In this document: piece after piece, positions 21,243 through 34,142 of the stretch
Numbering within the stretch: the stretch's first letter is position 1
Layout of the letters: each line of letters opens with the position of its first letter
NCBI GenBank assembly: GCA_026396195.1
Contig: JAPLXH010000011.1
Coordinates: 1 to 39,794 of the forward strand
Direction of reading: 5' to 3'
Length of the DNA stretch: 39,794 nucleotides
From: Candidatus Nealsonbacteria bacterium
Lineage (GTDB): Bacteria > Patescibacteriota > Minisyncoccia > Minisyncoccales > JAGGXC01
Made by a program: the position numbers and the translations under genes
The notes under the pieces: model-generated
Database searches by the model: none
Told to the model about the DNA's origin: nothing
What the model saw: the letters and a program-made list of their open reading frames with translations, nothing else

Positions 21243-21275
21243 ACTCAAGGTTTAAATAATCTTGAGTCTTTTTTT
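21243..21275 (+). terminator. Intrinsic terminator fused to next promoter
   Basis: ACTCAAG (21243-21249) pairs with CTTGAGT (21261-21267), then C and seven T. The 15-mer TTTTTTATTGACAAA is at 21270-21284. Confidence 0.9.
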
Positions 21276-21276
21276 A

Positions 21277-21304
21277 TTGACAAACCAATTAGTTAGAGTA
21301 GAAA
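21277..21304 (+). promoter_or_regulatory. Promoter TTGACA-16-TAGAAA
   Basis: TTGACA 21277-21282 and TAGAAA 21299-21304. Confidence 0.65.
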
Positions 21305-21328
21305 GAAGTAAAAAGGAGGATTTTAAAA

Positions 21329-21874
21329 ATGAATAAAGGTGATAAGATATTTTTTGCCATATGGGCCATGCTGATGGTTATAACAATCGCAGCGGTATGT
21401 TCTATAACAATACCAAGAGAGATAACAAAAAAAATTTGGCTACCGGATAATTATCATTTTGCCAATGAAAAAAATCCAGTAGAAGAAATTCATGTAAGCG
21501 GGACGGCAGTGGTAATTTCTTTTGAGGAATATAAAAAACAATTCTCCGACAATAGACACGAAATAATTGTAATAAAAAACAGTCCCTATCATACGGCAGA
21601 GCTTCATTATTTAACGAAAGAAGACAATATAACTTATTCTTCTTCGGTGTCTTACTCTGGTGCTACGTTTAACTTTGAGGTTGAACCAACGATAACTGAT
21701 TCAGAAATTAAACTATCATTCTCGCCAGGGGCAGGAGGAATTGTTATAGCAATTATCTTAGTGGGAATAGCAGCCTTTGTTTATTTTGTTATCGGTTTTT
21801 TAATCTATGAACCCATAGAAAAAAGAATAGAGAGAATAAAGAATTTGTGGATTTATAGGAAAAAGATTTCTTAA
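21329..21874 (+). CDS. Hypothetical membrane protein with two TM segments and external domain
   Basis: 181 residues. A first hydrophobic segment at about 8-28 and a second at about 135-160 enclose a polar beta-rich domain (YHFANEKNPVEEIHVSG, ITYSSSVSYSGATFNFEVEP), which is presumably outside the membrane. A short basic tail follows (EKRIERIKNLWIYRKK). No family recognised. AAGGAGGA (21314-21321) is the RBS. Own promoter and terminator. Confidence 0.6.
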   Translation: MNKGDKIFFAIWAMLMVITIAAVCSITIPREITKKIWLPDNYHFANEKNPVEEIHVSGTAVVISFEEYKKQFSDNRHEIIVIKNSPYHTAELHYLTKEDNITYSSSVSYSGATFNFEVEPTITDSEIKLSFSPGAGGIVIAIILVGIAAFVYFVIGFLIYEPIEKRIERIKNLWIYRKKIS

Positions 21875-21875
21875 A

Positions 21876-21905
21876 GGGGTACTATTTTTGTACCCTCTTT
21901 TTTAT
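21876..21905 (+). terminator. Intrinsic terminator
   Basis: GGGTAC (21877-21882) pairs with GTACCC (21890-21895), followed by TCTTTTTT. Confidence 0.9.
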
Positions 21906-21933
21906 TTACCGAGAAAATTGAGCTTGTCGAAGG
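21901..21933 (+). repeat. 33-bp direct repeat, copy 1 (leader)
   Basis: Begins TTTATTTACCGAGAAAATTG and ends CTTGTCGAAGG; 32 of 33 bases match the copy at 22381-22413. It follows a terminator T-run and takes the place of the TTGACA promoter in this unit. Confidence 0.85.
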
Positions 21934-21980
21934 AAGAAAATAAAGGTATTGTCAAAATAGATAAAAGGAGGTCTTTAAAA

Positions 21981-22343
21981 ATGAATAATGATACTAACGA
22001 TACTGATGATAATGTAACAAAAATCAAAAAGATGGTTGAAATGATGGAAACCAATGCAAAGACATTATCGGAGAAGAAAAACATTACACTCGATGAAGCT
22101 AGAAAAATAGTTCAAAAATCCTTAGAAAACATATTTGTAAAGAAAGCCTTGGAAGAACGCAAGGCTATTGAGGAATATACTACAATTCGTTTGTCTAAAA
22201 AAATTAAAGAAGCATTGAATACATGCGGACATAAAGGAGAATCTTACGATCAAATTTTGATAAAACTCATAAAATTATTTAGTAAGGGTGAAGGACGTCT
22301 GGAAAAACAAGTAAGAGAATATCTCTTAAAACAAAATCTTTAA
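21981..22343 (+). CDS. Hypothetical protein with RHH/VapB-like C-terminal motif
   Basis: 120 residues, soluble and highly charged. The N-terminal half is helical. The C-terminal half has YTTIRLSKKIKEALNTC then HKGESYDQILIKLIKLF, resembling ribbon-helix-helix antitoxins of the VapB type (TTIRLs-keik..L...gEsyddvI). No toxin gene follows, so it would be a solitary DNA-binding protein or regulator. Start at 21981 from AAGGAGGT (21965-21972). Family call is tentative. Confidence 0.55.
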   Translation: MNNDTNDTDDNVTKIKKMVEMMETNAKTLSEKKNITLDEARKIVQKSLENIFVKKALEERKAIEEYTTIRLSKKIKEALNTCGHKGESYDQILIKLIKLFSKGEGRLEKQVREYLLKQNL

Positions 22344-22351
22344 GAAAAAAC

Positions 22352-22384
22352 GCAGACAAATAGTATAAAATGTCTGCTTTTTTA
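22352..22384 (+). terminator. Intrinsic terminator
   Basis: GCAGACA (22352-22358) pairs with TGTCTGC (22371-22377), followed by TTTTTT, leading straight into the second 33-bp repeat. Confidence 0.9.
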
Positions 22385-22413
22385 TTTACCGAGAAAATTG
22401 AACTTGTCGAAGG
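22381..22413 (+). repeat. 33-bp direct repeat, copy 2 (leader)
   Basis: Second copy of the leader repeat, 480 bp from the first, with one mismatch (AAC for AGC). Both copies lie between a terminator and an RBS. Confidence 0.85.
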
Positions 22414-22440
22414 GAGGAAAGAGAGGTAGAGTTAAAAAAT

Positions 22441-22701
22441 ATGAATGATGACTTGATAAAACAACTCATAGAAGAAATTAAAAAGTTGAACAAAACAACC
22501 AAAGAGGCCAGTAAAAATACAAATCATCTTTCTAGTATAATTTTTATTATAGCTTTTGTTCAACTTTTTATAGCGTATTATCAGTTTCTTTTTTCGGTAA
22601 TAGAAGGAAAACATCAATTAATAGGGGTAGGATTTTTTATAGCTATTGTTGTCACGATTTGGTATATTTTTCATACTCTTAAAGGAAGGAGTGGGAATTA
22701 A
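22441..22701 (+). CDS. Small membrane protein, two TM segments
   Basis: 86 residues. An N-terminal amphipathic/coiled helix (LIKQLIEEIKKLNKTTKEA) is followed by two hydrophobic segments (about 31-50 and 58-78). Topology resembles small phage-like holins or accessory membrane proteins, but this is only a shape similarity. GAGAGGT lies 13 bases before the ATG. Ends just before a short terminator. Confidence 0.5.
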   Translation: MNDDLIKQLIEEIKKLNKTTKEASKNTNHLSSIIFIIAFVQLFIAYYQFLFSVIEGKHQLIGVGFFIAIVVTIWYIFHTLKGRSGN

Positions 22702-22704
22702 AAC

Positions 22705-22724
22705 GCCCATTGCTGGGCAGTTTT
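22705..22724 (+). terminator. Short intrinsic terminator
   Basis: GCCCA (22705-22709) pairs with TGGGC (22714-22718), then AGTTTTT. An inverted near-copy lies at 23569-23582. Confidence 0.8.
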
Positions 22725-22779
22725 TATTTGAAATTAGTTTATTTTATTGTGTTCTATAAATCAATAAATAATATCACCG

Positions 22780-23517
22780 CTAGAATAATTTAGGGGGATT
22801 TTCCAAAGTTATTGGTCTAGAACCGCCTCTTCCCATTCCTTCAAAAATAAAAAAACTACCGTCTTTTCCGTCTCTCCATAACTTACAGTCTTCAATCGGG
22901 TCTATGGTGATAAAAGAAAAAACGGGTTTTATTTGCACTAATGAGGTTTTATATATGGCGCGTAAAAAATCGTTGCCCATAACATTTTGTGGTATATCTG
23001 TTAATTTTAATCCGTCGAATACTAGAAAAATATGATTTAGACTTGTTATTTCTTTTGCAATAATCTCTGATTCCTTTTTAAAATCAAAGATTCCACCCTG
23101 AGATATATAGCAAACGAGCATTGTATTTGGTTCGTATTGTTTTCTTGATAATTTATTCCTTATTGTATCAAGTAAAGCGTCCTTTACTTGTTCAACCACC
23201 TCAACCTCTCTGATATGCATTTCTTGGATATTGTCCTTTTGAATAATGGTTCCGATTACGCCGTCAGGTGGGTCGATTTCTGGTTTTTGAATCCACCATT
23301 TAGTTTTATTTTGTTTAGCCACAGCTATTGCAACAATTGATGTTGCATATATTTCCTTGGCTCTTTTTAAATCCCTGTGGTTCCAAACATAGTCATGAGG
23401 CTTATTTAGTCTTTCTTTAAGTTTTCGATATTCATTCCAAAATCCGTTCAATCCCCAACATGGATTAAACCAGATAGTTCCTTTTTCTTTCAAATATAAT
23501 AAATGAGGCGGATACAT
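22780..23517 (-). CDS. Hypothetical protein, 245 residues
   Basis: Not recognised. The sequence is that of a soluble mixed alpha/beta protein: start MYPPHLLYLKEKGTIWFNPC, a YVWNHRDLKRAKEIYATS helix, TKWWIQKPEIDPPDGVIGT, EVVEQVKDALLDTIRNK, and LVCYISQGG...HIFLVFDGLK strands that could belong to a Rossmann-like or nuclease-like core. No catalytic motif is convincing. It is transcribed opposite to its neighbours from a TTGAAC/TATTTT promoter that would give an almost leaderless mRNA. No terminator was found between its stop and the convergent unit. Its flanks carry inverted copies of the same small hairpin. Confidence 0.65.
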   Translation of the reverse strand: MYPPHLLYLKEKGTIWFNPCWGLNGFWNEYRKLKERLNKPHDYVWNHRDLKRAKEIYATSIVAIAVAKQNKTKWWIQKPEIDPPDGVIGTIIQKDNIQEMHIREVEVVEQVKDALLDTIRNKLSRKQYEPNTMLVCYISQGGIFDFKKESEIIAKEITSLNHIFLVFDGLKLTDIPQNVMGNDFLRAIYKTSLVQIKPVFSFITIDPIEDCKLWRDGKDGSFFIFEGMGRGGSRPITLENPPKLF

Positions 23518-23525
23518 ATTCTTTT

Positions 23526-23554
23526 AAAATAAGCCTATTTTTAAAAAAGTTCAA
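23526..23554 (-). promoter_or_regulatory. Promoter TTGAAC-17-TATTTT (minus strand)
   Basis: -35 TTGAAC (plus 23549-23554) and -10 TATTTT (plus 23526-23531). The start point would be about 2 bases before the ATG at 23517. Confidence 0.55.
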
Positions 23555-23616
23555 GGTAAATAAAAACTGCCCAGTGATGGGCTTTTTGTATTCCTACAAC
23601 ATAGATTATGAGACGT
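23551..23616 (-). pseudogene. Mini-frame behind a good RBS with ACG where ATG is expected
   Basis: On the minus strand GGAGG is followed after 7 bases by ACG and an open frame of 21 codons. The frame runs through a terminator hairpin and ends in the TGA of the TTGAAC -35 box of the next gene. The layout copies that of the intact units, so it looks like the remains of one; it could also be chance. Confidence 0.3.
23563..23582 (-). terminator. Short intrinsic terminator (minus strand)
   Basis: GCCCA/TGGGC arms at 23569-23573 and 23578-23582; on the minus strand it is followed by AGTTTTTATTTACC. It is an inverted near-copy of the terminator at 22705. Confidence 0.7.
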
Positions 23617-23631
23617 AAATTTTCCTCCAAC

Positions 23632-23651
23632 AAAAAACCGTCTGATTGACG
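23632..23651 (-). terminator. Intrinsic terminator (minus strand)
   Basis: On the minus strand CGTC-AATCA-GACG is followed by GTTTTTT. It is the second of two tandem terminators after the broken gene at 23729. Confidence 0.6.
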
Positions 23652-23654
23652 ATA

Positions 23655-23690
23655 AAAAAAGAAAGAGGGCAAGTTTCGAAACTTAACCCT
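23655..23690 (-). terminator. Intrinsic terminator (minus strand) after the broken gene
   Basis: AGGG/CCCT outer arms (23666-23669, 23687-23690) and AAGTTT/AAACTT inner arms, followed on the minus strand by CTTTCTTTTTTT. Confidence 0.75.
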
Positions 23691-23728
23691 TTAAATTTAT
23701 ATAGATTTATTTTATCTCTAACTTCCAA

Positions 23729-24082
23729 TCAGCCATGATGAAGCATTTCGTCTAACTCTGTTTCAACGCCTATGTCGGACTTAACGTTTGATTTGAAATT
23801 TTCAGGAAACCAGTTTTTCCCTTCCTTCTTATAAAAATTTTTATCTTTTGGATGAGGATTGGGAGCCAAGATAAAGCCTGGTAATTCGGTACCTTCTCCG
23901 TCTATTATCGCAAGAAGAGAAAAAATGGCACCATTTGTTCTTTCTAACACAGATAACTTCCCCTTAGAATCCGCCCAAGACTTTGCAATTGAACGAGCCT
24001 TTTTTATAAATATTTCGCGAACCTCTTCGGTTGTATATTATCTCGGCTTTTTTTCTTCCAATTTTTTTTCTTTCTTCATCAT
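23729..24082 (-). pseudogene. Hypothetical gene interrupted by an early in-frame stop
   Basis: A consensus promoter and GGAGA RBS lead to ATG 24082 and the frame MMKKEKKLEEKKPR, which then meets TAA (24040-24038). The same frame continues without a break as YTTEEVREIFIKKARSIAK, then SWADSKGKLSVLERTNGAIF and ends ELDEMLHHG, 102 more residues. One C-to-T change (CAA to TAA) would explain it. The remaining protein (IDGEGTELPGFILAPNPHP...GKNWFPENF) is not recognised. An internal start (for example GTG near 23953) could still make a shorter product. Confidence 0.6.
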
Positions 24083-24158
24083 TATCATTCTCCTATTCAA
24101 TTTTTTACTAAGATTACTTAGTAAACAAGAGAAATAATTTTTATTTCCTTGCATTTAT

Positions 24159-24188
24159 ATTATACCATACTAATTTATAATTTGTCAA
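24159..24188 (-). promoter_or_regulatory. Consensus promoter TTGACA-18-TATAAT (minus strand)
   Basis: -35 TTGACA (plus 24183-24188) and extended -10 TGGTATAAT (plus 24159-24164 for TATAAT). The surrounding bases TTGACAAAT...AATTAG-ATGGTATAATATAA are shared with the promoter at 32242. Confidence 0.85.
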
Positions 24189-24196
24189 ACTAAAAT

Positions 24197-24237
24197 AAAC
24201 CGTTTCTACCATGAGAGCGACTTAGACGGTTTTTTTA
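24197..24237. terminator. Hairpin with T-run
   Basis: AAACCGT (24197-24203) pairs with ACGGTTT (24226-24232), followed on the plus strand by TTTTTTATTAG. On the minus strand the hairpin runs into TTTATTTTAG and the TTGACA box at 24188, copying the terminator-promoter junction of the other units. Confidence 0.6.
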
Positions 24238-24261
24238 TTAGTAATCGCAACAGTTAATCTC

Positions 24262-24471
24262 GTGGGCATTGCAATTGCTTCAATGTTTATAAGAGAAATA
24301 GACAAATCAGGAGAGAAAGTGTTTACACTTAAACAATTTTATATCTACTCGATTCTTTGGCCAGTACCCTTTATTCTAGCAATTCTCGGTACTTTAGATG
24401 CCGCGATCGCCATTAATATACATAAAGCAATGCAACGAATGCCTACGAATCAATGCAAAAGCAATTATTAG
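24262..24471 (+). CDS. Possible membrane protein fragment
   Basis: A frame of 69 residues from GTG 24262 (open upstream to about 24230 without any ATG) with two hydrophobic segments (GIAIASMFI and FYIYSILWPVPFILAILG). There is no RBS and no promoter; the T-run of a hairpin directly precedes it. It ends near a good terminator. It may be the 3' part of a gene that lost its start. Low confidence that it is expressed. Confidence 0.35.
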   Translation: MGIAIASMFIREIDKSGEKVFTLKQFYIYSILWPVPFILAILGTLDAAIAINIHKAMQRMPTNQCKSNY

Positions 24472-24484
24472 TTCTTTTGCTTAT

Positions 24485-24514
24485 CAGACACTTATTTTTG
24501 TGTCTGTTTTTTTA
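24485..24514 (+). terminator. Intrinsic terminator
   Basis: CAGACAC (24485-24491) pairs with GTGTCTG (24500-24506), followed by TTTTTTTTA. Confidence 0.9.
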
Positions 24515-24574
24515 TATAATAATTATGATTCAACTAGGAATTGTTATATTTTTTGAAAACAGTAGAATAAAATC

Positions 24575-25702
24575 ATGGAACCTTTAGCTTCAAAGATAAG
24601 ACCAAAAAATTTAAAAGAATTTGCCGGACAAGAACATCTGGTAGGGGAGGGAAAACCTTTGAATGTTGCCATAAAACAGAAACACCTGTTTTCTTTTATT
24701 TTTTGGGGACCGCCGGGAACCGGAAAAACTACTTTAGCTAAAATATATGCCAATAGTTTGAATGCCCGATTTTATGAATTATCTGCTGTTTCAGCGGGAA
24801 AAGCAGATATCAGAAATATAATAACAGAAGATATAGGGACAGAACCCAAAATTTTGTTTTTAGATGAAATCCACCGTTTCAATAAAGCTCAGCAAGATTT
24901 TCTGCTTCCTTTTGTGGAAAGAGGGGAGATAACTCTTATTGGCGCCACTACGGAAAATCCAAGCTTTGAAGTAATTGCACCTTTGCTTTCGCGTTGCCGG
25001 GTTTTTGTTTTAAACGAACTCTCGGAAAAAGAAATGCTGTCAATTATTGAACGAACCGAATTTAAAATGCAAAAAGATGCGAAAGACTGGCTGGTTAGAA
25101 TGGCAAATGGTGACGCCAGACAAGCTATCACCATGCTGGAAAACACATCAAAGCTCTATGGTAAAATTACGGTGGAAAATTTAAAAAGCACTCTTCAATC
25201 AAAATATTTAAGATATGACAAGCAAGGAGACGAACACTACAATACCATTTCAGCTTTTATTAAATGCATGAGAGCTTCCCAGCCCGATGCCGCGCTTTAT
25301 TATCTGGCCAGAATGATTGATAGCGGGGAAGACCCCAAGTTTATAGCCAGAAGGATGGTTATTTTCGCCTCTGAAGACATTGGGATGGCCCAGCCAACGG
25401 CTTTGGTAGTGGCAAATGATGTATTTAGGGCGGTGCAAAGTATTGGGCTGCCCGAATGCGGCATTAACCTGGCTCACGGAGTAGTTTATTTGTGCAGATG
25501 CAAGAAAAATAGAACAGCTTATGATGCTTATATGGCGGCAATGGAAGATGTAAAACAATATGGAAACCTGCCAATTCCTTTAAATTTACGCAACGCGCCC
25601 ACGAAACTTATGAAAGAATTGAATTATGGAAAAGGATATGAAAGATACACTACGGAAGACCTTCTACCGGATAAGCTAAAAGGCAAAAAATATTTAAAAT
25701 AA
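24575..25702 (+). CDS. rarA: Replication-associated recombination protein A (RarA/MgsA, AAA+ ATPase)
   Basis: Clamp-loader-like AAA+ ATPase acting at stalled replication forks. The N-terminus PLASKIRPKNLKEFAGQEHL is typical. Walker A is GPPGTGKTT, Walker B is ILFLDEIHRFNKAQQD, sensor 1 is GATTENPSFEV, and the SRCRVFVLNEL segment follows. The C-terminal tetramerisation domain is present (SEDIGMAQPTALVVAN, GINLAHGVVYLC, YERYTTEDLLPDKLKGKKYL). Length 375 versus about 420-450 in E. coli and B. subtilis; linkers look shortened. It lacks a strong RBS, like the housekeeping genes, and separates two parts of the accessory island. Confidence 0.95.
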   Translation: MEPLASKIRPKNLKEFAGQEHLVGEGKPLNVAIKQKHLFSFIFWGPPGTGKTTLAKIYANSLNARFYELSAVSAGKADIRNIITEDIGTEPKILFLDEIHRFNKAQQDFLLPFVERGEITLIGATTENPSFEVIAPLLSRCRVFVLNELSEKEMLSIIERTEFKMQKDAKDWLVRMANGDARQAITMLENTSKLYGKITVENLKSTLQSKYLRYDKQGDEHYNTISAFIKCMRASQPDAALYYLARMIDSGEDPKFIARRMVIFASEDIGMAQPTALVVANDVFRAVQSIGLPECGINLAHGVVYLCRCKKNRTAYDAYMAAMEDVKQYGNLPIPLNLRNAPTKLMKELNYGKGYERYTTEDLLPDKLKGKKYLK

Positions 25703-25728
25703 AAGCTGAAAAACTAAAGAAACAATAG

Positions 25729-25756
25729 TTGACATTAAAGCTCTTATTGATAAGAT
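25729..25756 (+). promoter_or_regulatory. Promoter TTGACA-16-TAAGAT
   Basis: TTGACA 25729-25734 and TAAGAT 25751-25756, about 45 bases before the GGAAGGTGG RBS of the next gene. Confidence 0.7.
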
Positions 25757-25806
25757 AAAATATTCAAAAAAGAACATTTAAAAATTAATTTAAGGAAGGT
25801 GGAAAA

Positions 25807-27585
25807 ATGGAGAAAGACATGATTAGTTTTGATGTAGAAAAAATAATTGAGGCCTGGAAAGAAATGGAAGACGAAAGAAAAGGAACAGACTTCCTGGAAT
25901 TTCAGAAAATATTATCTTCATCTTCGATTGGAAGAATCTTTGAATTAAGGGGAATAGACCTTAGGGAGCTGTTCGAAAATTTACACAGCAAAGAAATAAA
26001 AAAAATAGAAGAAGAAATAAGAAAGGAATTTTCGAACATAACGAAAGCCGAGCCGGGACTAACAGAAGAACCGCCACCAGAACTAAAAAAAGACCCACTC
26101 GCAGTAATGCCGGAAACTGAAACAATAATAAAAGAGAATAATATTCCAGAAAAAACAAATGAACAAAGAGAAAGGGAAGAAAAAAAACGCATTGTATTGG
26201 CAAAAGCAAGTACCGAGTTGGTAATTTCCAAGATAAACGAACATCAAGATCAGTTTAAACAACTGGAAAAGAAAATACTAGAAAAAATGGGACGCTATAG
26301 AAATGTTCATGAGAAAAAGAAAAAATATACGCTTATTTCAAAGATTAAGATTTTCACTATTATGGAAATCTGCGATTTCCGTAGCTTTACCGTATTAGCA
26401 GATTGGATAATAGGAAACGAAAAACTAGTGATAAAAAGTTTAGAAATCGATAATTTACCGAAAACAAGAGAAGGAATTTCCAGCGCATTCTATGGCTCGC
26501 GAGGCACTATTGAAAAACATCTTGCCGAGGGAGAGATAAAAAAGATAGCCGATGAAATTATAGACGAAATAAAGAAATCTGTAGAAAATAAAGAAAACAA
26601 TCAAAAATTGCCTGAAAAAAAGAAAGAACAAAAATTTAACATAGCAGAAGAGTCTTTACCGACAGAGAAGAAAGAACTGGAAGAAAAAAAATCCGAAGAA
26701 AAAAAATCAATTATTGCGCCGACATCTAGGGCAGAATTAATAATTTCTATGATAAATAAGCGTCAGAACTCTTTTGAATTAATGGTAAAAAAAATGTTTG
26801 AAAAAATGGGAACTTTCAACGCTCGTCAAAACGAAAAATATCCCTTAATTTTAATATTTAAACTTTTTACCATTAAGCACTTCTACGGATTTGTCTCCTA
26901 TGCTAGATTAGCAATTTGGATAGAAGAGAACAAAGAACTGGTGATAAAGGATTTAGGATTTGAAGATTTGCCGAAAACAAAAACAGAAATTTCTAATTTA
27001 CTCAATAAATCAGAACACGCTTTCAAAGAATATCTCCCTGAAGCAGGAATAAAAAAGATAGCCGATGAAATTATAGACGAAATAAAGAAATCTGTAGAAA
27101 ATAAAGAAAACAATCAAAAATTGCCCGAAAAGACAAAAACCATTTTTCAAGGCAAAAAAGAAAAACCCCTAAGTCCAAGTTTAAAAAGATCATCCGAAAA
27201 GCCAGAAGAAGAAACGACAGCAATGAGGAATTATATTTGGGGACTATTTAATCTTAATGGACAAAAGGATTACAACGAACTGCTTCGTTTAGTCAGAGAA
27301 AAGTTTAAAGGGCACGTTATAACGAAAGAAATAATTCCTCAATGGATTCAGGAAGAAAGATCAAGAAGGAACAATCTCACCTGCGGTGGAATGGATTGCT
27401 TCAAGGAAGAAGCTGGTAAAGATAAGGGTCTAACCACGGTATATTGTAGAACAGTACAAAGAATGAGGGGCAAAGACGAAAATATTTGCAACACAGAACT
27501 GGAAGAACTGATTAAAAAAGCAGACAACCGATTATCTGCTCAATTCCTTAACCAACCTCAACCACTACCTAGCCGCTCTATATAA
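25807..27585 (+). CDS. 592-residue protein with a duplicated helical domain
   Basis: Not recognised. An N-terminal helical part (about 1-130) is followed by two copies of a domain of about 150 residues. Copy 1 runs from about 132 (ASTELVISKINEHQDQF) to about 275 (NNQKLPEK), copy 2 from about 304 (RAELIISMINKRQNSF) to about 446 (NNQKLPEK). Each copy holds a F.I-.I..F..F..-A.WI segment and LPKT...IS. A C-terminal domain (about 475-592) has RNYIWGLFNLNGQKDY and four Cys (LTCGGMDCF, VYCRT, NICNTE) that may bind zinc. The linker and last helix of each copy are identical at DNA level (77 bp). Own promoter, GGAAGGTGG RBS and terminator. A large regulatory or structural protein is possible. Confidence 0.7.
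   Translation: MEKDMISFDVEKIIEAWKEMEDERKGTDFLEFQKILSSSSIGRIFELRGIDLRELFENLHSKEIKKIEEEIRKEFSNITKAEPGLTEEPPPELKKDPLAVMPETETIIKENNIPEKTNEQREREEKKRIVLAKASTELVISKINEHQDQFKQLEKKILEKMGRYRNVHEKKKKYTLISKIKIFTIMEICDFRSFTVLADWIIGNEKLVIKSLEIDNLPKTREGISSAFYGSRGTIEKHLAEGEIKKIADEIIDEIKKSVENKENNQKLPEKKKEQKFNIAEESLPTEKKELEEKKSEEKKSIIAPTSRAELIISMINKRQNSFELMVKKMFEKMGTFNARQNEKYPLILIFKLFTIKHFYGFVSYARLAIWIEENKELVIKDLGFEDLPKTKTEISNLLNKSEHAFKEYLPEAGIKKIADEIIDEIKKSVENKENNQKLPEKTKTIFQGKKEKPLSPSLKRSSEKPEEETTAMRNYIWGLFNLNGQKDYNELLRLVREKFKGHVITKEIIPQWIQEERSRRNNLTCGGMDCFKEEAGKDKGLTTVYCRTVQRMRGKDENICNTELEELIKKADNRLSAQFLNQPQPLPSRSI
26536..26612 (+). repeat. 77-bp perfect direct repeat, copy 1
   Basis: Inside the 592-residue protein gene; begins ATAAAAAAGATAGCCGATGA and ends AAAAATTGCC. 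Identical to 27049-27125, 513 bp downstream (in frame). Confidence 0.95.
27049..27125 (+). repeat. 77-bp perfect direct repeat, copy 2
   Basis: Identical to 26536-26612, whereas the rest of the two domain copies has diverged strongly. Confidence 0.95.
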
Positions 27586-27594
27586 AAAATTATG

Positions 27595-27620
27595 GCTGAA
27601 GAAAAACTTCAGCTTTTTTA
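27595..27620 (+). terminator. Intrinsic terminator
   Basis: GCTGAAG (27595-27601) pairs with CTTCAGC (27607-27613) around AAAAA, followed by TTTTTTA. TTGACA follows 8 bases later. Confidence 0.9.
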
Positions 27621-27627
27621 TTTTAAA

Positions 27628-27657
27628 TTGACAAAATACTAAATTTTATTGCATAAT
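27628..27657 (+). promoter_or_regulatory. Promoter TTGACA-18-CATAAT
   Basis: TTGACA 27628-27633 and CATAAT 27652-27657. Confidence 0.7.
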
Positions 27658-27696
27658 ATTAATAGCACATTAGATTTTTAAATATGAGGTAAAATT

Positions 27697-28134
27697 ATGA
27701 TTAAAGAAGAAACAGAACGAACGGAAAGAAATATAATAAAGTCTTTAAAACCGAAGGTCAAATCTCTGGTTATAGAATTAAGAAGATTGGGGATAGAAAC
27801 AGTTTGGTCTTGCCAAGGTTATACTGGTTGGGGAAATAATTTTCCGTGGATATGTGTTGCGATAAAAGATTTGGATAGGGTGAAAATAATAGTTAATTTA
27901 TATAATAAAACAGTTGAGCAATCCAAGGAAGAAAAAAATAGAATTTTTTGGACAATATTAAATTCACCCGCAGCATTGATACCAAACATGCAAGGTAAAA
28001 ATTTTTCTCTAGAGGAATTACAAGAAAGCGCATTAAACTTTGCTGAAACACTAAAGGAATTGAACTATGTCCCAGAAGAAATAAAACATGAGCCACAAAA
28101 TCGCATTTTGTTAGGCTCTTTTTTTTATTTCTGA
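27697..28134 (+). CDS. Hypothetical protein with SCQGY motif; terminator inside coding sequence
   Basis: 145 residues, soluble. IKSLKPKVKSLVIELRRLGIETVWSCQGYTGWG resembles small phage/CPR proteins with a conserved SCqGh/y loop (given here in pieces: LVIELRRLGIETVW and SCQGYTGWG), whose role is unknown. Helices follow (LEELQESALNFAETLKEL). GAGGT lies 8 bases before the ATG. The last codons are read through the terminator hairpin and its T-run (GSFFYF), and the stop follows only after the T-run. Confidence 0.6.
   Translation: MIKEETERTERNIIKSLKPKVKSLVIELRRLGIETVWSCQGYTGWGNNFPWICVAIKDLDRVKIIVNLYNKTVEQSKEEKNRIFWTILNSPAALIPNMQGKNFSLEELQESALNFAETLKELNYVPEEIKHEPQNRILLGSFFYF
28090..28127 (+). terminator. 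Intrinsic terminator inside the coding sequence
   Basis: GAGCC (28090-28094) pairs with GGCTC (28114-28118), with inner AAAAT/ATTTT pairing, then eight T. It lies upstream of the stop codon at 28132-28134. Confidence 0.85.
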
Positions 28135-28151
28135 ACTAAGTGAAGAAACAA

Positions 28152-28223
28152 GGTTCTGTCGAATGCAGGTTCTTATTTCCGAGCACAGCGAGGAAACAAG
28201 GTTCTACTACAGGCAAATCCTTA
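28152..28223 (+). repeat. Two copies of a 24-bp hairpin-type repeat
   Basis: Copy A (28152-28175) starts GGTTCTGTCGAATGCAGG and ends TTCTTA. Copy B (28200-28223) is degenerate (GGTTCTACTACAGGCAAATC). Both are preceded by GAAACAA. Copy A matches the inverted element at 32711-32734 in 22 of 24 positions. Confidence 0.6.
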
Positions 28224-28229
28224 TTTTTC

Positions 28230-28238
28230 TGGTATAAT
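28230..28238 (+). promoter_or_regulatory. Extended -10 promoter
   Basis: TGGTATAAT (TATAAT at 28233-28238), 24 bases before the ATG at 28263. Confidence 0.65.
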
Positions 28239-28262
28239 ATAATAATAAATAAACATAATAAC

Positions 28263-28463
28263 ATGAATCAAAATAATATATTAGCCATCTTTTTCTTAAT
28301 GGGCTTGATTTTGGGCGGAGTTTCCGGAGCCTTATATGTTGTGGCTTCGGTAAAATACCACAAGATAAACTTTGAGCAATTAAAGTATTCCGCTTTCAAA
28401 CAACTGGTAATTCTTTTTTTTATAACCATATTTGTTGTACTTTTAGCGATAATGGTTTTTTAA
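28263..28463 (+). CDS. Small two-TM membrane protein, 66 residues
   Basis: Two hydrophobic segments (about 6-28 and 45-65) with a short polar loop (VKYHKINFEQLKYS). The ATG at 28263 is taken because the longer upstream frame would include the repeat elements and the promoter. No RBS is present. Such small CPR membrane proteins are often annotated as hypothetical or pilin-system accessory; no function is claimed. Confidence 0.6.
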   Translation: MNQNNILAIFFLMGLILGGVSGALYVVASVKYHKINFEQLKYSAFKQLVILFFITIFVVLLAIMVF

Positions 28464-28484
28464 TAAAAATAAAATTATATAAAT

Positions 28485-28973
28485 ATGCCAATATTTCATC
28501 AGGGAAGTTCTTCTATGGGAAGACAAGAAAGATCATCAAGCAAACCTTCTATGCCAAACAAAAATGACAGGAGTGCGGTTCAGAAAATATTCGGAAGGTC
28601 ACCACCGGCATCAAAAGCCAAGCTAAAAGAGACGCCAGTAATACAATCAGCATTTGGCAATAAATCATCGATGAGCAGACAAGAATTCAGGTCATGGCTT
28701 CGCAATCAGCCGGAATTTAAAAAAGAATCTTATAAGCTTTATCCAAATTTATCGGAAGATAAAAGAGTTCAAGAAATAGAAAAAAATATCTGGGGTGGTG
28801 TTGGTAGTAAGTGGGGAAGTCTTATTGAAAAAGGAACAAAAGAGCCGGAAAGAAGAAAATTTGAATACGAAAGAGAATTACATACAAGCAAGATCATGAA
28901 TGATATAAAACAAAAAAATAGAAAAAAATTTGAAGAAGGTTTTATTGATAAATTTATAGAAAAGAAAAAATAG
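28485..28973 (+). CDS. Hypothetical basic protein, 162 residues
   Basis: Not recognised. The N-terminal 60 residues are Ser/Lys/Arg-rich and probably disordered (HQGSSSMGRQERSSSKPSMP). A second part has SRQEFRSWLRNQPEFKKESYKLYPNLSEDKR, given here in part as SRQEFRSWLRNQPEF, and a charged helical tail. No membrane segment. It lies 21 bases after the two-TM gene, with no promoter between, so the two may be one transcript. Confidence 0.6.
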   Translation: MPIFHQGSSSMGRQERSSSKPSMPNKNDRSAVQKIFGRSPPASKAKLKETPVIQSAFGNKSSMSRQEFRSWLRNQPEFKKESYKLYPNLSEDKRVQEIEKNIWGGVGSKWGSLIEKGTKEPERRKFEYERELHTSKIMNDIKQKNRKKFEEGFIDKFIEKKK

Positions 28974-29023
28974 TTGAAAAATAATTTTATATTATATAGT
29001 ATAGGATATTATGGAGGCAAAAA

Positions 29024-29533
29024 ATGTTCTTTGTAAATAGATTTTCCGGAAACAAAATTTATACAATAGGAAAAATAAAAAACCTTTATCTTGGCAACGA
29101 AAGAGTAGAAATTATCAAAGAAAAATACGTATATTTTAAATCCCAATCAAATTTCGGCGTTATTTTCGTTTCTAAAAAAGAATTGACAAGAAACAAGATG
29201 CTTAAAAAATCGAATTATCCTTTACTTGAAAGGAGCCTCAAGCAAACACTGGAATTTACTGTGCTTAGCCTGAATAGAATAAAATTTTACGAAACAGCAT
29301 CCTTGGAAGAAATAATAAAACTTATTAATTCAAGCAAAATCGAAGAAACGCGTAAGTTTAAGCCGGAGATAGAACTAAAATTGGGAAAACTAAATAATGA
29401 TGAATACATAACAATCTACTCAGAGATAAAAAATAAAAACGAACAATTAATAAAAATGCAGTTGAAAAGAATCATGTCGTTTTTTGAAAGATTTTCTAAA
29501 GAACTAGGAATCACAAGAGGTTCAATACTTTAA
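29024..29533 (+). CDS. Hypothetical protein, 169 residues
   Basis: Not recognised. The first 65 residues look beta-rich (NKIYTIGKIKNLYLGNERVE, YVYFKSQSNFGVIFVSKKEL), followed by helical segments (SLEEIIKLINSSKIEETRK; QLIKMQLKRIMSFFERFSKE). GGAGG (29012-29016) is the RBS. A TTGAAA at 28974-28979 and TATAGT at 28995-29000 could be its promoter, with a short 15-base spacer. Ends at a good terminator. Confidence 0.6.
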   Translation: MFFVNRFSGNKIYTIGKIKNLYLGNERVEIIKEKYVYFKSQSNFGVIFVSKKELTRNKMLKKSNYPLLERSLKQTLEFTVLSLNRIKFYETASLEEIIKLINSSKIEETRKFKPEIELKLGKLNNDEYITIYSEIKNKNEQLIKMQLKRIMSFFERFSKELGITRGSIL

Positions 29534-29537
29534 TTAT

Positions 29538-29564
29538 CCAGCAAATTGAATTGCTGGTTTTTTA
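29538..29564 (+). terminator. Intrinsic terminator
   Basis: CCAGCAA (29538-29544) pairs with TTGCTGG (29551-29557), followed by TTTTTTA. TTGACA follows at 29572. Confidence 0.9.
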
Positions 29565-29571
29565 TTTGATA

Positions 29572-29600
29572 TTGACAAATTAGTAGTTTGTCTTTAAAAA
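29572..29600 (+). promoter_or_regulatory. Promoter TTGACA-17-TAAAAA
   Basis: TTGACA 29572-29577 and TAAAAA 29595-29600. Confidence 0.65.
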
Positions 29601-29648
29601 TAAAAGAGGGGTGAATTTTAAAAATTAAATAATGAAGGAGATGATAGA

Positions 29649-29921
29649 ATGATTGAACTAAAAAAATACATAAAAGTTGGAAAAACAACAGTAAGAATTG
29701 ATGAAATGATAAATTTAATCAAAAAGTACGGTTTGTCTTGCAGAATATGTAAAAAGGGGACAGTAAAATTTGTCAGCGAAGGCGACATTTCTTCGGTAGA
29801 AAATAAAAAATATTATGAAGCATACTGCATGATACTAAAATGCCCGAGATGTGAAGGATCAATGAATTTTATTTATGATTCGGAAAATAACTCTGTTAAA
29901 ATAACACCTCCCGTATCCTAA
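29649..29921 (+). CDS. Hypothetical zinc-ribbon protein, 90 residues
   Basis: SCRICKKGTVKFV and LKCPRCEGSMNFI give two CxxC knuckles about 35 residues apart, so a zinc ribbon is likely, with a beta-rich C-terminus (FIYDSENNSVKITPP). The first 28 residues include a short basic helix (IDEMINLIKKYG). RBS AAGGAGA (29635-29641). Followed after 11 bases by the rpiB-like scrap. Function unknown. Confidence 0.6.
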   Translation: MIELKKYIKVGKTTVRIDEMINLIKKYGLSCRICKKGTVKFVSEGDISSVENKKYYEAYCMILKCPRCEGSMNFIYDSENNSVKITPPVS

Positions 29922-29988
29922 GGAGGAATGAAATGATAATATTTGTCGCCAGCGATCATGCAGGATATTTCTTAAAAGAAAATATAAA

Positions 29989-30011
29989 AGGAGACGAATC
30001 TCCTTTTTTTA
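29989..30011 (+). terminator. Intrinsic terminator
   Basis: AGGAGA (29989-29994) pairs with TCTCCT (29999-30004) around CGAA, followed by a T-run. Confidence 0.9.
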
Positions 30012-30017
30012 TTTTCA

Positions 30018-30046
30018 TTGACAAAATTATACAAACTATTTATAAT
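30018..30046 (+). promoter_or_regulatory. Perfect consensus promoter TTGACA-17-TATAAT
   Basis: TTGACA 30018-30023, 17-base spacer, TATAAT 30041-30046, about 40 bases before the GAAGGAAGTG RBS of the glucanase gene. Strong expression is expected. Confidence 0.9.
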
Positions 30047-30098
30047 AAAAATGCTCTTTAACAACTAAACATCTGTTAAAAGAGAAGGAAGTGAAAAA

Positions 30099-32135
30099 AT
30101 GAAAGAAAAAATAGAGAAAAGAAAGAAATTTTTGATAGGCATGTTAATTGCGCTAGTGATGCTAACCGCAAATATGTCCGGTTGTCTAGGAATAGGAAAT
30201 GAACCAAAAGAAAATGATGAAAATAATCCTCAACCACCGATAACGCCTACTTACTACAACTTAATTATAAAGGTTGTGGGACAGGGGACTACTAATCCAA
30301 CTACCGGTGCTCATAGCTATCTTAAAGGAACTAAAGTAAATCTAACAGCGGATCCTTCTCCGGGTTGGGAATTTGATTATTGGAGCGATGATATTCATAA
30401 ATTCCAGAACCCTATCAACATTACAATGACTTCCAATAAGACAGTGACAGCTAACTTTTATAAAAAAAGGACACCGCCACCACCGTATTACACTCTAACC
30501 ATAACTATTGATGGTCAGGGGACAACCAATCCAGCTTCTGGTACTCACAGCTATTTAAAAGATAGCTCAGTAATAATAACTGCCACAGCTAGTGCTGGTT
30601 ACAAGTTTGATCACTGGTCAGGTGATACTGCAGGAACTCAAAATCCTGTGACAATTCCCATGAGCTCTAATAAAACAGTGAAAGCTTGGTTTGTAGAAAA
30701 GCCTGTTTACTACGAATTAGCGATTAAGGTTAGCGGCGATGGGACAACTAATCCTGCTCCCGGTAACCACACTTATCTTAAAGGAACTCAGGTAAGTATT
30801 GCGGCTATTCTTAGTACTAACTGGCAATTTGATTACTGGAGCGGCGATGCCGACGGAAATCAAAACTCAACTACTATTACTATAGATTCTGACAAAGAAA
30901 TAACTGCTCGATTTGCTCCACCCTATAAAGTATATGGACTAGACTTTGGTCCTTATACAAAATCAGGGCAAAATCCTAATTATGGAACAATAATAAGCGA
31001 GGAACAAATAAGAGAGTTAATAAAAGTTATTAAAAAGTACACTACCTGGATCAGAACCTATGGTACCGAACGAGGTTTAGAAAACGTCGGACGTATCGCT
31101 CACGAAAACGGCCTTTCGGTGGCAATTGGAGCTTGGTTAAGTAAGGATTTAGCGGCAAATGAAAGGCAGGTTGCTAATCTGATAACTATAGCTAACGATG
31201 GCGAAGCCGATATGTTAATTGTCGGCAACGAAGTTATGCTCCGAGGTGAACTTAACAGTAGTCAAGTAATTGGGTATATAAATAGGGTTAAGGAAAATAC
31301 TTCTGGGATTCCCGTTGTTGCATCTGATGTCTACGGCGAATTTTTAGAACATCCGGAAATAATGAATGCCAGCGATATAATTCTAGCGAATTGCTATCCT
31401 TATTGGGAAAGAATAAGTATAGACTACGCAGTTTATAATATTAATCTCAGATATCAACAATTATTAGCGGCAGCAGGAAACAAAAAGGTTATGATTGCTG
31501 AAACCGGCTGGCCAAGCAGTGGCGATACAATGGGCGATGCCGTTCCTTCACCAGAAAACGCCAATTTCTTTTTCCTGAACTTTATTTCCTGGGCTAATAC
31601 CGAAAATGTATCCTATTTCTACTTTGAGGCTTTTGATGAACCTTGGAAAGTAAACTACGAAGGTCCTAAAGGCGCTCATTGGGGAGTTTGGGACAAAAAT
31701 GGTTATTTAAAACCAGGAATGGAAAGAGTATTTAATGGCGAAAGTACTCTTAATAACTGGGGGACAAAGATTATTGACGGACCAGGAAATCCTACAATTA
31801 AATTTACACATGTACCTCCTTACGGCAGTTACGAGGACCTCAAGGGCGATGTTTCTCATGTTAGTTCATCTGATTATCGAGTAGCGGTTTATATAAAAGT
31901 AGGTAACGGATGGTGGACTAAACCCTTTTGGGATAATCCTTTAACCATTATCTTACCCAATGGAAACTGGATTTGCGATATCACAACCGGTGGACAAGAT
32001 TCTCAAGCAACCGAAATTATTGCCTTTCTTTTACCAGTTAGTTACGGTCCGCCACTTATGCGCGGAGGTTCTATCTTACCTCAAGGATTATACGATAACG
32101 CTCTGGCATATGTGAACGTAACACGCTCTCTTTAA
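30099..32135 (+). CDS. Surface lipoprotein with three InlB-like repeats and a GH17 glucanase domain
   Basis: 678 residues. A signal peptide with a lipobox-like MSGC (Cys29) is followed by an acidic/proline-rich linker. Three repeats of about 70 residues follow (53-123, 130-201, 204-274), each with G.GTTNP..G.H.YLK, FD.WS.D and NPxxI.M.S.K.V.A.F, i.e. divergent InlB B-repeat (PF18998-type) domains. A glycoside hydrolase family 17-like barrel covers about 279-545. VGNEVM (proton donor Glu378) and AETGWPSSG (nucleophile Glu468) are intact, so beta-1,3-glucan hydrolysis is the likely activity. The last 130 residues form an unrecognised beta-rich domain. Codon choice and the archaeal-looking lipobox context suggest acquisition by transfer (inference). 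Confidence 0.8.
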   Translation: MKEKIEKRKKFLIGMLIALVMLTANMSGCLGIGNEPKENDENNPQPPITPTYYNLIIKVVGQGTTNPTTGAHSYLKGTKVNLTADPSPGWEFDYWSDDIHKFQNPINITMTSNKTVTANFYKKRTPPPPYYTLTITIDGQGTTNPASGTHSYLKDSSVIITATASAGYKFDHWSGDTAGTQNPVTIPMSSNKTVKAWFVEKPVYYELAIKVSGDGTTNPAPGNHTYLKGTQVSIAAILSTNWQFDYWSGDADGNQNSTTITIDSDKEITARFAPPYKVYGLDFGPYTKSGQNPNYGTIISEEQIRELIKVIKKYTTWIRTYGTERGLENVGRIAHENGLSVAIGAWLSKDLAANERQVANLITIANDGEADMLIVGNEVMLRGELNSSQVIGYINRVKENTSGIPVVASDVYGEFLEHPEIMNASDIILANCYPYWERISIDYAVYNINLRYQQLLAAAGNKKVMIAETGWPSSGDTMGDAVPSPENANFFFLNFISWANTENVSYFYFEAFDEPWKVNYEGPKGAHWGVWDKNGYLKPGMERVFNGESTLNNWGTKIIDGPGNPTIKFTHVPPYGSYEDLKGDVSHVSSSDYRVAVYIKVGNGWWTKPFWDNPLTIILPNGNWICDITTGGQDSQATEIIAFLLPVSYGPPLMRGGSILPQGLYDNALAYVNVTRSL

Positions 32136-32145
32136 AATAAAGTCA

Positions 32146-32176
32146 CGGTGCAACCTTTTTTGCACCGGTTTTTTTA
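32146..32176 (+). terminator. Strong intrinsic terminator after the glucanase gene
   Basis: CGGTGCA (32146-32152) pairs with TGCACCG (32161-32167), followed by a T-run. The T-run touches the left inverted repeat at 32176. Confidence 0.9.
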
Positions 32177-32194
32177 TATCTAATATTGTGCGAC
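32176..32194 (-). repeat. 19-bp inverted repeat, left copy (partial dif-like site)
   Basis: ATATCTAATATTGTGCGAC on the plus strand is the exact reverse complement of 33912-33930. In dif orientation (minus strand) it keeps the first arm and centre, but its second arm is replaced by the terminator T-run (ATATAAAAAAA). Confidence 0.9.
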
Positions 32195-32241
32195 GTTTAA
32201 TTAAGGATACAAAATCACCGAGGTAGGCGAATAGTGGTTTC

Positions 32242-32271
32242 TTGACAAATAAGAAATTAGCATGGTATAAT
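32242..32271 (+). promoter_or_regulatory. Consensus promoter TTGACA-18-TATAAT
   Basis: TTGACA 32242-32247, extended -10 TGGTATAAT (TATAAT 32266-32271). The sequence is closely related to the minus-strand promoter at 24159-24188. Confidence 0.9.
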
Positions 32272-32277
32272 ATAATT

Positions 32278-32330
32278 GCCAATAATGGATACCATTAATT
32301 GGCTATGCTGGGAAATCCCAGTGAAGGAGG
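32278..32330 (+). promoter_or_regulatory. Structured leader: two hairpins before the RBS
   Basis: GCCAATAATGG pairs with CCATTAATTGGC (32278-32303, one bulged base), then CTGGGA-AA-TCCCAG (32308-32321), then the RBS AAGGAGG (32324-32330). The leader starts at or near the predicted start point. Confidence 0.6.
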
Positions 32331-32339
32331 ACAATTAAA

Positions 32340-32438
32340 ATGACAGAAATAAATTTTTGGCGATGGTTGCTAAAACCATTGCAAGATTATAAATTTTGGC
32401 GATGGTTACTAAAACCATTACTAGATGAAAAAACATGA
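32340..32438 (+). CDS. Trp-rich 32-residue tandem-repeat peptide
   Basis: The ATG at 32340 follows AAGGAGGA by 8 bases. The peptide is essentially two copies of a 13-residue unit, INFWRWLLKPLQD and YKFWRWLLKPLLD. The FWRWLLKPL core is aromatic, cationic and amphipathic, like membrane-active peptides. No family is recognised. It has a consensus promoter, a two-hairpin leader and a terminator, so it is well provided for expression. Because the repeats are also self-complementary at RNA level (ATGGTT/AACCAT), the unit might act as an RNA rather than, or as well as, a peptide gene. Confidence 0.55.
   Translation: MTEINFWRWLLKPLQDYKFWRWLLKPLLDEKT
32349..32426 (+). repeat. Two tandem 39-bp repeats in the peptide gene
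   Basis: Units 32349-32387 and 32388-32426 share TTTTGGCGATGGTT then CTAAAACCATT. Each can fold as ATGGTT-N5-AACCAT. Confidence 0.85.
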
Positions 32439-32463
32439 GGTAACCATTCCTCTTCTTTTTTTA
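32437..32463 (+). terminator. Terminator with loop complementary to the second repeat
   Basis: GAGG (32437-32440) pairs with CCTC (32449-32452), then TTC and a T-run. GTAACCAT (32440-32447) is fully complementary to ATGGTTAC at 32402-32409, giving an alternative fold that would break the terminator stem. Confidence 0.6.
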
Positions 32464-32498: not shown

Positions 32499-32527
32499 TT
32501 GACGCCAGTCTTTACCGGCATTATTCT
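32499..32527 (+). promoter_or_regulatory. Promoter TTGACG-17-TATTCT
   Basis: TTGACG 32499-32504 and TATTCT 32522-32527, directly upstream of a hairpin-rich non-coding stretch. Confidence 0.5.
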
Positions 32528-32533
32528 ATATAT

Positions 32534-32652
32534 AGAAAGGGTCGTACAATGTAGGTTAAGCGACCCTTCTAAGAACAAACATAAGCCCTCTTGAAAGACC
32601 CCTTAAAAACCTGTTGTTTAGGAGCCTAACCCCAAGAGAGCTAAATTACAGA
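32534..32652 (+). ncRNA. Candidate structured RNA upstream of the recombinase
   Basis: No credible coding frame. GGGTCG (32539-32544) pairs with CGACCC (32561-32566), extended by AGAA/TTCT. AGC-C-CTCTTG (32584-32593) pairs with CAAGAG-A-GCT (32633-32642). A third small hairpin TTAGG/CCTAA lies inside. A promoter sits just upstream. There is no clear terminator, so it could also be the long leader of the recombinase mRNA. Not recognised as any known RNA family. Confidence 0.4.
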
Positions 32653-32685: not shown

Positions 32686-32775
32686 ATGAATAAATCCAAT
32701 AAAAGTATTATAAGAACCTGCCTTCGGCAGAACCTTTAAACACTTTCATGAATAAATTCAATAAAAGTATTATAA
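32686..32775 (+). repeat. 28-bp direct repeat of the recombinase start, interrupted by a hairpin element
   Basis: 32686-32713 and 32748-32775 both read ATGAATAAAT, C/T variation, then AATAAAAGTATTATAA (27 of 28 identical). Between them lies the hairpin element at 32711-32734. The upstream copy has its own ATG, but its frame stops after 17 codons. Confidence 0.85.
32711..32734 (-). repeat. 24-bp hairpin repeat element, inverted copy
   Basis: TAAGAACCTGCCTTCGGCAG then AACC. Its reverse complement matches the copy at 28152-28175 in 22 of 24 positions. CTGCC-TTC-GGCAG forms the hairpin. Confidence 0.7.
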
Positions 32776-33704
32776 AATCTATCCCCGATTTTTTAGATTA
32801 TTGCGAAGTTGAAAAAGGCCTTTCCAATAACACTCAAAAGAATTATAAGAGATACCTTGAGAAGTTCATTTTTTGGTTAAGAAAGACCAAAAAAGAAGAC
32901 CTTAAACCCCACGAATTAACTAGTGAAAATATTTGGGATTATCGCCTATTTTTATCCCGTTTTCAGGACAAAAAAGGCCAGGTTTTAAAGAAGATTACCC
33001 AGAACTACTATTTAATCGCTTTAAGGGCACTTTTAAGCTATTTTAGTGCCAAAGACGTGGTTTGTATCGCATCGGATAAAATAGCCCTGCCAAAGGATGC
33101 TAAAAGCGAAAAAACAGTAAAATTCCTTAATTTAGATCAAGTTGAGAAGCTTTTATTATCTCCGAACACTAAAGACGAAATCGGATTAAGGGACCGGGCT
33201 ATTTTGGAGGCCTTTTTCTCAACCGGCCTAAGAATAGCTGAGCTCGTCTTTTTAAACAAAGAACAATTTGCTAACTTGAAAGATAAAAAAGAATTAGAAC
33301 TTGGGATTATCGGCAAAGGAAATCAACCGCGGACGGTTTATTTTTCAGAAAGAGCTTTGTCTTGGTTAAAAAAATATTTGGAAACTAGAAACGATAAAGA
33401 TAAGGCCCTGTTTATCCATTACAGATCTAAAAAAGATACTGACTCTCGCCTAACCCCGCGCTCTATTGAAAGAATTGTTAAAAAATATGCGATGTTGGCC
33501 GGAGTACCAATTTTTACTACTCCTCATACCTTGCGTCATTCTTATGCCACGGATTTATTAACTCAAGGCGTTGACCTAAGAAGTATTCAAGAATTTTTAG
33601 GCCACAAAAATATTGTTACCACTCAAATATATACTCACGTCACAAACAAGCGTCTAAGAGATATTCATCATCAATTCCACAGCGGAAAAAATTTAAAAGA
33701 ATGA
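32748..33704 (+). CDS. Tyrosine recombinase, XerC/XerD/XerA-like
   Basis: 318 residues, complete. The N-terminal SAM-like core-binding domain has DFLDYCEVEKGLSNNTQKNY. The catalytic set is full: Arg162 (STGLRIAEL), Lys190 (GKGNQPR), His260 and Arg263 (HTLRHSYA), His286 (FLGHKN) and the nucleophile Tyr295 (QIYTHV). This resembles single-recombinase Xer systems (archaeal XerA, CPR Xer) used for chromosome dimer resolution, but integrases of cassettes look alike. It sits inside a 1.75 kb segment bounded by inverted dif-like repeats. The 5' end has a duplicated start region; ATG 32748 is taken because the upstream copy is closed by a stop. Confidence 0.92.
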   Translation: MNKFNKSIIKSIPDFLDYCEVEKGLSNNTQKNYKRYLEKFIFWLRKTKKEDLKPHELTSENIWDYRLFLSRFQDKKGQVLKKITQNYYLIALRALLSYFSAKDVVCIASDKIALPKDAKSEKTVKFLNLDQVEKLLLSPNTKDEIGLRDRAILEAFFSTGLRIAELVFLNKEQFANLKDKKELELGIIGKGNQPRTVYFSERALSWLKKYLETRNDKDKALFIHYRSKKDTDSRLTPRSIERIVKKYAMLAGVPIFTTPHTLRHSYATDLLTQGVDLRSIQEFLGHKNIVTTQIYTHVTNKRLRDIHHQFHSGKNLKE

Positions 33705-33909: not shown

Positions 33910-33937
33910 GTGTCGCACAATATTAGATATCTTAAAC
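33910..33937 (+). repeat. dif-like site containing the right 19-bp inverted repeat
   Basis: Arm 1 GTGTCGCACAA, centre TATTAG, arm 2 ATATCTTAAAC. Against E. coli dif, arm 1 matches GGTGCGCATAA at 7 of 11 and arm 2 matches TTATGTTAAAT at 8 of 11, with the same 11-6-11 layout. Bases 33912-33930 are the perfect inverted repeat of 32176-32194. It lies 206 bp after the recombinase stop. This is a candidate recombination site for it; function inferred. Confidence 0.55.
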
Positions 33938-33958: not shown

Positions 33959-34035
33959 TTGACAATTAAATTAATTAGTATAAAATAATCGTGGAGGCAA
34001 AAGGAGGTAGGAAATTTACTCCTCTTTTTTTAATT
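33959..34035 (+). other. Empty unit: promoter, RBS and terminator with no gene
   Basis: TTGACA (33959-33964), 16 bases, TAAAAT (33981-33986), then GGAGG (33993-33997) and a second AGGAGG (34002-34007). AGGAG (34002-34006) pairs with CTCCT (34019-34023) followed by seven T. There is no start codon between the RBS and the terminator. The layout is that of the island units with the gene missing. A short RNA of about 40 bases would be made. Confidence 0.6.
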
Positions 34036-34036
34036 A

Positions 34037-34052
34037 ATGGTTGCTTAACCAT
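34037..34052. other. Hairpin ATGGTT-GCTT-AACCAT
   Basis: Perfect 6-bp stem; almost the same sequence as the hairpin in each 39-bp repeat of the peptide gene at 32340. The stretch 34053-34140 holds a further palindrome AAGGAAA-TTTCCTT (34078-34092) and no gene. Confidence 0.5.
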
Positions 34053-34142
34053 CATTCTCCTCACGCACCTCAAATCAAAGGAAAATTTCCTTACCTCCCC
34101 CATCTCTCTTTATTGAACATTAAAAACATACAAAAAAAACAA

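Follow-up and report, generated by a model that had tools for sequence, protein, structure and literature searches.

Accessory genes on Acinetobacter plasmids are found in dif (pdif) modules, in which they lie between inversely oriented relatives of the dif that the host Xer system uses on the chromosome; small genes – toxin–antitoxin pairs included – are common cargo (PMC13141974). In the XerS/difSL and XerH/difH systems there is a single Xer gene, and the dif that belongs to it lies directly alongside (PMC5357621). The locus described here, which forms part of a window of 39,794 nucleotides (the whole stretch of DNA analysed) from Candidatus Nealsonbacteria (host genome size 792 kb), bears a likeness to each. 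As in the Acinetobacter modules, inverse sites stand at both ends – evident from a perfect 19-bp repeat and from polarity counts – and, as comparison of congeners makes clear, differing cargo is held in equal surroundings. However, this locus is chromosomal, lies at the terminus, includes xer and dif, has an additional hairpin at its outer sites and is served by a single Xer rather than by XerC/XerD; moreover, whereas pdif modules end in two-armed sites with a 6-bp spacer, here the second arm is absent (6/9 mismatches at 32171 and at 33912). The likeness to XerS/difSL and XerH/difH is the pairing of one Xer with an adjacent dif-like site. Yet this site has a 6-bp centre and an E. coli-like core in place of the wide central region of difSL, the protein is XerC/XerD-like (112 bits against the XerS model, for which the cut-off is 267), and dif lies in the xer leader, flanked by outward one-armed sites and a cargo slot. 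Outer sites of this kind go without mention in the part of PMC5357621 on which we draw.

The xer gene (32748-33704, plus strand) encodes a tyrosine recombinase of 318 aa (Pfam Phage_integrase, 2.5e-37), the sole one in this genome at E < 1e-20. Xer matches are present in 210 of the 243 genomes of the order, with identities of up to 79%: the gene is a vertically kept, single housekeeping Xer. Upstream of it are a weak promoter-like site, TTGACG-17-TATTCT (32499-32527, plus strand; 9/12), at the place where relatives have TTGACA..TATTAT, and a two-armed site, GTCGTACAA-TGTAGG-TTAAGCGAC (32541-32564, plus strand), that ends 184 bp before xer. Relatives carry the two-armed site in their xer leaders as GTCGCACAA-TGTAGG-TWAAGCGAC: 25 of 46 genomes have it no more than 250 bp upstream of xer, always on the same strand, although these loci were partly chosen for the site or for a close Xer, and counts drawn from them describe layout and polarity rather than prevalence. 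For other orders of the class the form is GTCGCAYAATGTAGGTTATGCGAC, with one copy in every genome that matches. Its core resembles that of E. coli dif, and for this reason we take the two-armed site to be dif. In some relatives (L062, L066, L075 and L084) a conserved long hairpin, GCAGATTTTGCGACACTC..GAGTGTCGCAAGAATCTGC, stands between dif and the xer ATG and contains inverted GTCGCAA words; none was seen in the window.

The module is bounded by inverted ends of about 60 bp that carry GTCGCACAATATTA and are directed outward. In each end a short spacer separates TAATATTGTGCGACATTTAAT from a hairpin, for instance ACCGTTAGGGTAGGGAACTAACGGTTTTTT, and the two ends are inverted copies of each other; in the window the site is retained at both, but a hairpin, of weaker form, is seen at the left one alone. 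The left site, GTCGCACAATATTAGATAT (32176-32194, minus strand, outward from xer), is an exact 19-bp inverted copy of the right one (33912-33930, plus strand, likewise outward). Its position is kept in relatives, and the repeat has just two copies genome-wide at up to 3 mismatches; between them lie a peptide-encoding unit, the dif-like site and xer. Further in, at 32195-32240 (plus strand), the left end continues with GTTTAAT.., the weak hairpin ACCGaGGTAGGcgaatagTGGT and a T run; seven relatives have left ends that align with this part, and in most of them the hairpin is stronger and of the ACCGTTAGGGTAGGGAACTAACGGTTTTTT type.

In relatives the word GTCGCACAAT recurs at three positions: in the two-armed leader site and in one-armed sites on either side. 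These one-armed sites, TAAATGTCGCACAATATTA, flank xer and are directed away from it. Within the same partly preselected 46 genomes polarity is outward at 41 of 41 sites to the right of xer and at 21 of 24 to the left; three left-hand sites depart from this, all of them 51-71 bp away from xer, where the two-armed site usually lies. Prevalence is better judged from the 14-base site, which at no more than 1 mismatch is found in 80 of 196 genomes, some of the matches – especially mismatched ones – lying far from xer and perhaps being due to chance. At several left ends (L115, L124, L134 and L138) the outer site, TAATATTGTGCGAC, contributes a TAA that either is the stop codon of the outside gene or directly follows it. 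Elsewhere (L126, in G119 at 410000-425500; L117, L141, L149, L121 and L122) there are extra one-armed sites of the same polarity, together with two-armed ones (for example GTCGCACAATACACCTTGTGAGAC); they lie next to the xer module or on different contigs and may delimit further cassettes. An IS-like transposon between inverted repeats was considered and set aside: xer mostly occurs once per genome, and often next to gltX.

Between the outer end, with its one-armed site and hairpin, and the xer promoter is a slot whose contents vary. In the window the slot extends from 32237 to about 32465, an extent that all but coincides with that of the peptide unit. The peptide is less remarkable than this position, in which relatives hold different genes or possible RNAs. 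Two congeners (G113 and G114) are 90% identical over the 72 bp of the left end and 86% identical across the xer promoter, dif and xer, but the intervening segment is unrelated apart from short pieces; a second comparison (G027 and G116) likewise gave conserved ends and xer with an unrelated middle. The slots of other genomes contain frames of 71 aa, 97 aa, 157 aa or larger, or none that is evident, and two of them (G003 and G179) have a strong promoter with no evident frame. Promoters scoring at least 10/12 occur within 140 bp of 9 of 21 left ends, against an expectation of 0.9. The peptide gene had been placed inside the recombinase segment by a first-pass annotation made from the letters alone; more precisely, it takes up the variable slot within an Xer/dif module that is itself conserved.

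The position of the module on the chromosome is best seen in a relative assembled as one contig (661 kb). There the cumulative GC skew has its maximum – which marks the terminus – at 422 kb, inside the 421.2-423.4 kb taken up by the xer module, around which two-armed dif-like sites cluster. The window, too, shows a flip of GC skew and of gene strand at the module.

We think it probable, with some reserve, that the peptide unit is cargo, a self-contained gene housed in the accessory slot of an Xer/dif module at the terminus. A gene with its own promoter, strong ribosome-binding site and terminator would thereby occupy the slot, with dif inside the xer leader, and Xer would exchange the cargo at the outer sites, as in plasmid dif modules – a step suggested by layout and turnover. 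The transcript would be translated and would contain no switch of transcription, and the peptide would act at the membrane by way of two amphipathic FWRWLLKPL segments. Against this reading, no recombination product was seen, the outer sites have one recognisable arm, and the case for peptide coding comes from one sequence.

A broader proposal, which we advance tentatively and consider conceivable rather than likely, is that in small-genome bacteria of this order the single housekeeping Xer and its dif constitute a gene-capture platform at the terminus, an Xer-based counterpart of the integron, with self-contained cassettes (orphan micro-peptides and possibly structured RNAs) being swapped between the one-armed sites and the xer promoter. 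Common to integrons and this locus are a recombinase gene with an adjacent site, variable self-contained genes and, in some relatives, tandem sites of the same orientation. Here, however, the recombinase is a housekeeping Xer (91 bits against the integron-integrase model, with a cut-off of 265), the conserved hairpin next to the outer site lacks the attC layout, the slot is on the promoter side of xer, and the outer sites are inverse. Were the exchange slot real, it would account for one origin of orphan genes in genomes of very small size; these genes would be sought, species by species, in the stretch from the left end to the xer promoter, and chromosome-dimer resolution would double as gene capture with no dedicated integrase. 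Our search of the open-licence literature turned up no account of dif or Xer cassettes from these bacteria.

A serious rival concerns the outer sites, which could be polar terminus signals – a fork barrier, or a bidirectional insulator around dif – with the slot gene merely lying between them and with no mobility. Such a function would fit the way in which the sites point outward to either side of dif, their place where GC skew peaks, the terminator-like hairpins of the two ends and, in some genomes, the presence of further sites of the same polarity on one side; yet the outer sites share the Xer arm of dif, two-armed dif-like sites recur nearby, and the cargo of congeners is unrelated exactly from the end to the xer promoter. 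Fixed polarity and hairpins suit terminus signals well, but turnover of cargo at the ends fits exchange better, and we regard signals without mobility as somewhat unlikely. The alternatives are not exclusive: this one bears on the outer sites, those below on the peptide unit.

That unit, which lies wholly on the plus strand, contains all the sequence features that the first-pass annotation listed, and a discrete, strongly promoted micro-peptide gene beside a recombinase describes it well. The consensus promoter is there (TTGACA-18-TATAAT, 32242-32271; 12/12 matches), with an extended -10 (TG before the -10) in addition, as are two leader hairpins at 32278-32303 (-11.5 kcal/mol, pairing probability ~1) and 32307-32322 (-9.5 kcal/mol). 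A strong, well-spaced ribosome-binding site, AAGGAGG (32324-32330), stands 9 nt upstream of the ATG at 32340, from which a 32-codon frame, MTEINFWRWLLKPLQDYKFWRWLLKPLLDEKT, runs to 32438. Within the frame are two 39-bp units, NFWRWLLKPLQDY (32352-32390) and KFWRWLLKPLLDE (32391-32429), that are 85% identical and each encode FWRWLLKPL. An intrinsic terminator follows (32425-32463; -8.7 kcal/mol), its GAGG/CCTC stem extended by the A/U tract. The minus strand over the unit has no good promoter: the best, at 32116-32087, reads away from it, and a weak one (9/12) at 32826-32797 is directed towards it.

The predicted peptide contains four Trp residues and two FWRWLLKPL segments and has a net charge of +2. 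From this composition we would guess at a membrane-associated action, perhaps that of an antagonistic or self-limiting small peptide; its amphipathicity is within the range of shuffled sequences (156 of 2000 shuffles). The very short frame, strong expression signals and aromatic amphipathic segments recall the small hydrophobic or Trp-rich peptides of type I toxin–antitoxin systems and bacteriocins. Unlike these, the peptide unit was seen with no antisense RNA, immunity gene or export gene, and there is no sequence relationship.

The unit might instead work as a structured regulatory RNA in which the frame is incidental. Its complete transcript of 187 nt is more stable than shuffles (z -5.5), the frame has no homologue that we could find, and one of the frameless slots (G003) is strongly folded (z -3.7); indeed, because slots exist with a promoter and no evident frame, an RNA product is possible for the peptide unit too. 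But the other such slot (G179) has no excess fold, no Rfam family matches in the window or in the slots of relatives, the frame has a strong, well-spaced ribosome-binding site, and the fold inside the frame barely exceeds that of synonymous recodings: 57 of 1000 recodings with host codon usage, and 103 of 1000 codon shuffles, were equally stable. The repeats had been noted to fold on themselves, and the hairpins are present; they are mainly a by-product of coding, because WLLKP is specified by the self-complementary TGG-TTR-CTA-AAA-CCA.

A comparison of synonymous with non-synonymous changes between the two units had been suggested by the first-pass annotation. The units differ at six bases, of which two fall inside FWRWLLKPL and are both synonymous (about 6% by chance, taking a synonymous fraction of 0.25 and for a single sequence), while the codons flanking this core differ non-synonymously. 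One of the synonymous core differences, the sole change to a stem pair, breaks the pair and leaves the amino acid as it was. The pattern weakly favours a peptide over an RNA, and we judge a regulatory RNA with an incidental frame to be unlikely.

Protein searches of 60, 247 and 384 genomes from the order and class (overlapping sets) returned no homologue of the peptide: the weak matches in the 247-genome search appeared on inspection to be due to chance, and one weak match in the 384-genome search sits in an open frame of 416 aa. A DNA pattern found none in IMG/VR or GTDB, weak matches again looking like chance when inspected, although the pattern required FW[R/S]W..KP and more diverged relatives of the peptide would escape it. 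Plasmids and phages yielded no homologue, Pfam and NCBIfam no family, and the region contains no tmRNA or tRNA. At the sensitivity of these searches the peptide gene is an orphan. The search for similar frames upstream of xer in relatives, also suggested at the outset, recovered the position but not the peptide. Conservation of neither frame nor hairpins had been named in advance as counting against the gene, and in part this is what was found: neither is conserved in anything recovered. The lack can, however, be put down to turnover of cargo, and the gene need not be spurious. A spurious frame in decayed sequence of a variable region would also be an orphan, in single copy, in a variable slot, but complete and well-spaced expression signals and a tandem duplication that preserves a nine-residue core make such an origin improbable.

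The first-pass annotation went further in proposing control built into the RNA, by terminator and anti-terminator folds that exclude each other. The complementarity behind this is exact over 8 nt, between ATGGTTAC in unit 2 (32402-32409) and GTAACCAT in the terminator loop (32440-32447); the exclusion is not borne out, for a forced anti-terminator reaches -11.6 kcal/mol against -17.1 kcal/mol for the unit-2 hairpin plus terminator – 5.5 kcal/mol worse, with an ensemble probability of ~0.07. A switch of this type is rejected on energy, and the synonymous recodings likewise lend built-in control no support. Despite its four Trp codons, the exact complement and the downstream position of xer, a leader-peptide attenuator controlling xer is highly improbable: Trp-type attenuators have competing folds of similar energy before the regulated gene, whereas here the energies are far apart, xer has its own promoter-like site (with dif) after the terminator, relatives retain that promoter and not the leader of the peptide unit, and no Trp-related gene lies downstream.

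The surroundings of the module in the window have features of their own. In many relatives gltX and a gene of ~100-150 aa adjoin xer; here they are found ~20 kb away (11039-13100), and for this reason a large island appears to have entered the terminus, the interval between gltX and the module (13100-32170) being filled mostly with unassigned small genes. Inside the island, at 23591-23614, is a possible second two-armed site, TTCCTACAA-CATAGA-TTATGAGAC, with 5/18 mismatches and a background of ~5 in 620 kb. A lipoprotein-like protein of 678 aa (30099-32135), with three InlB-type repeats and a glycoside hydrolase 17-like domain, is encoded by a frame that stops 40 bp short of the left end. Just outside the right outer site there is a tiny unit (33960-34053) consisting of TTGACA..TATAAA, GGAGGCAAAAGGAGG and a short T-tailed hairpin, followed by ATGGTTGCTTAACCAT (~34038-34053), which nearly equals the hairpin word of unit 1 of the peptide gene.
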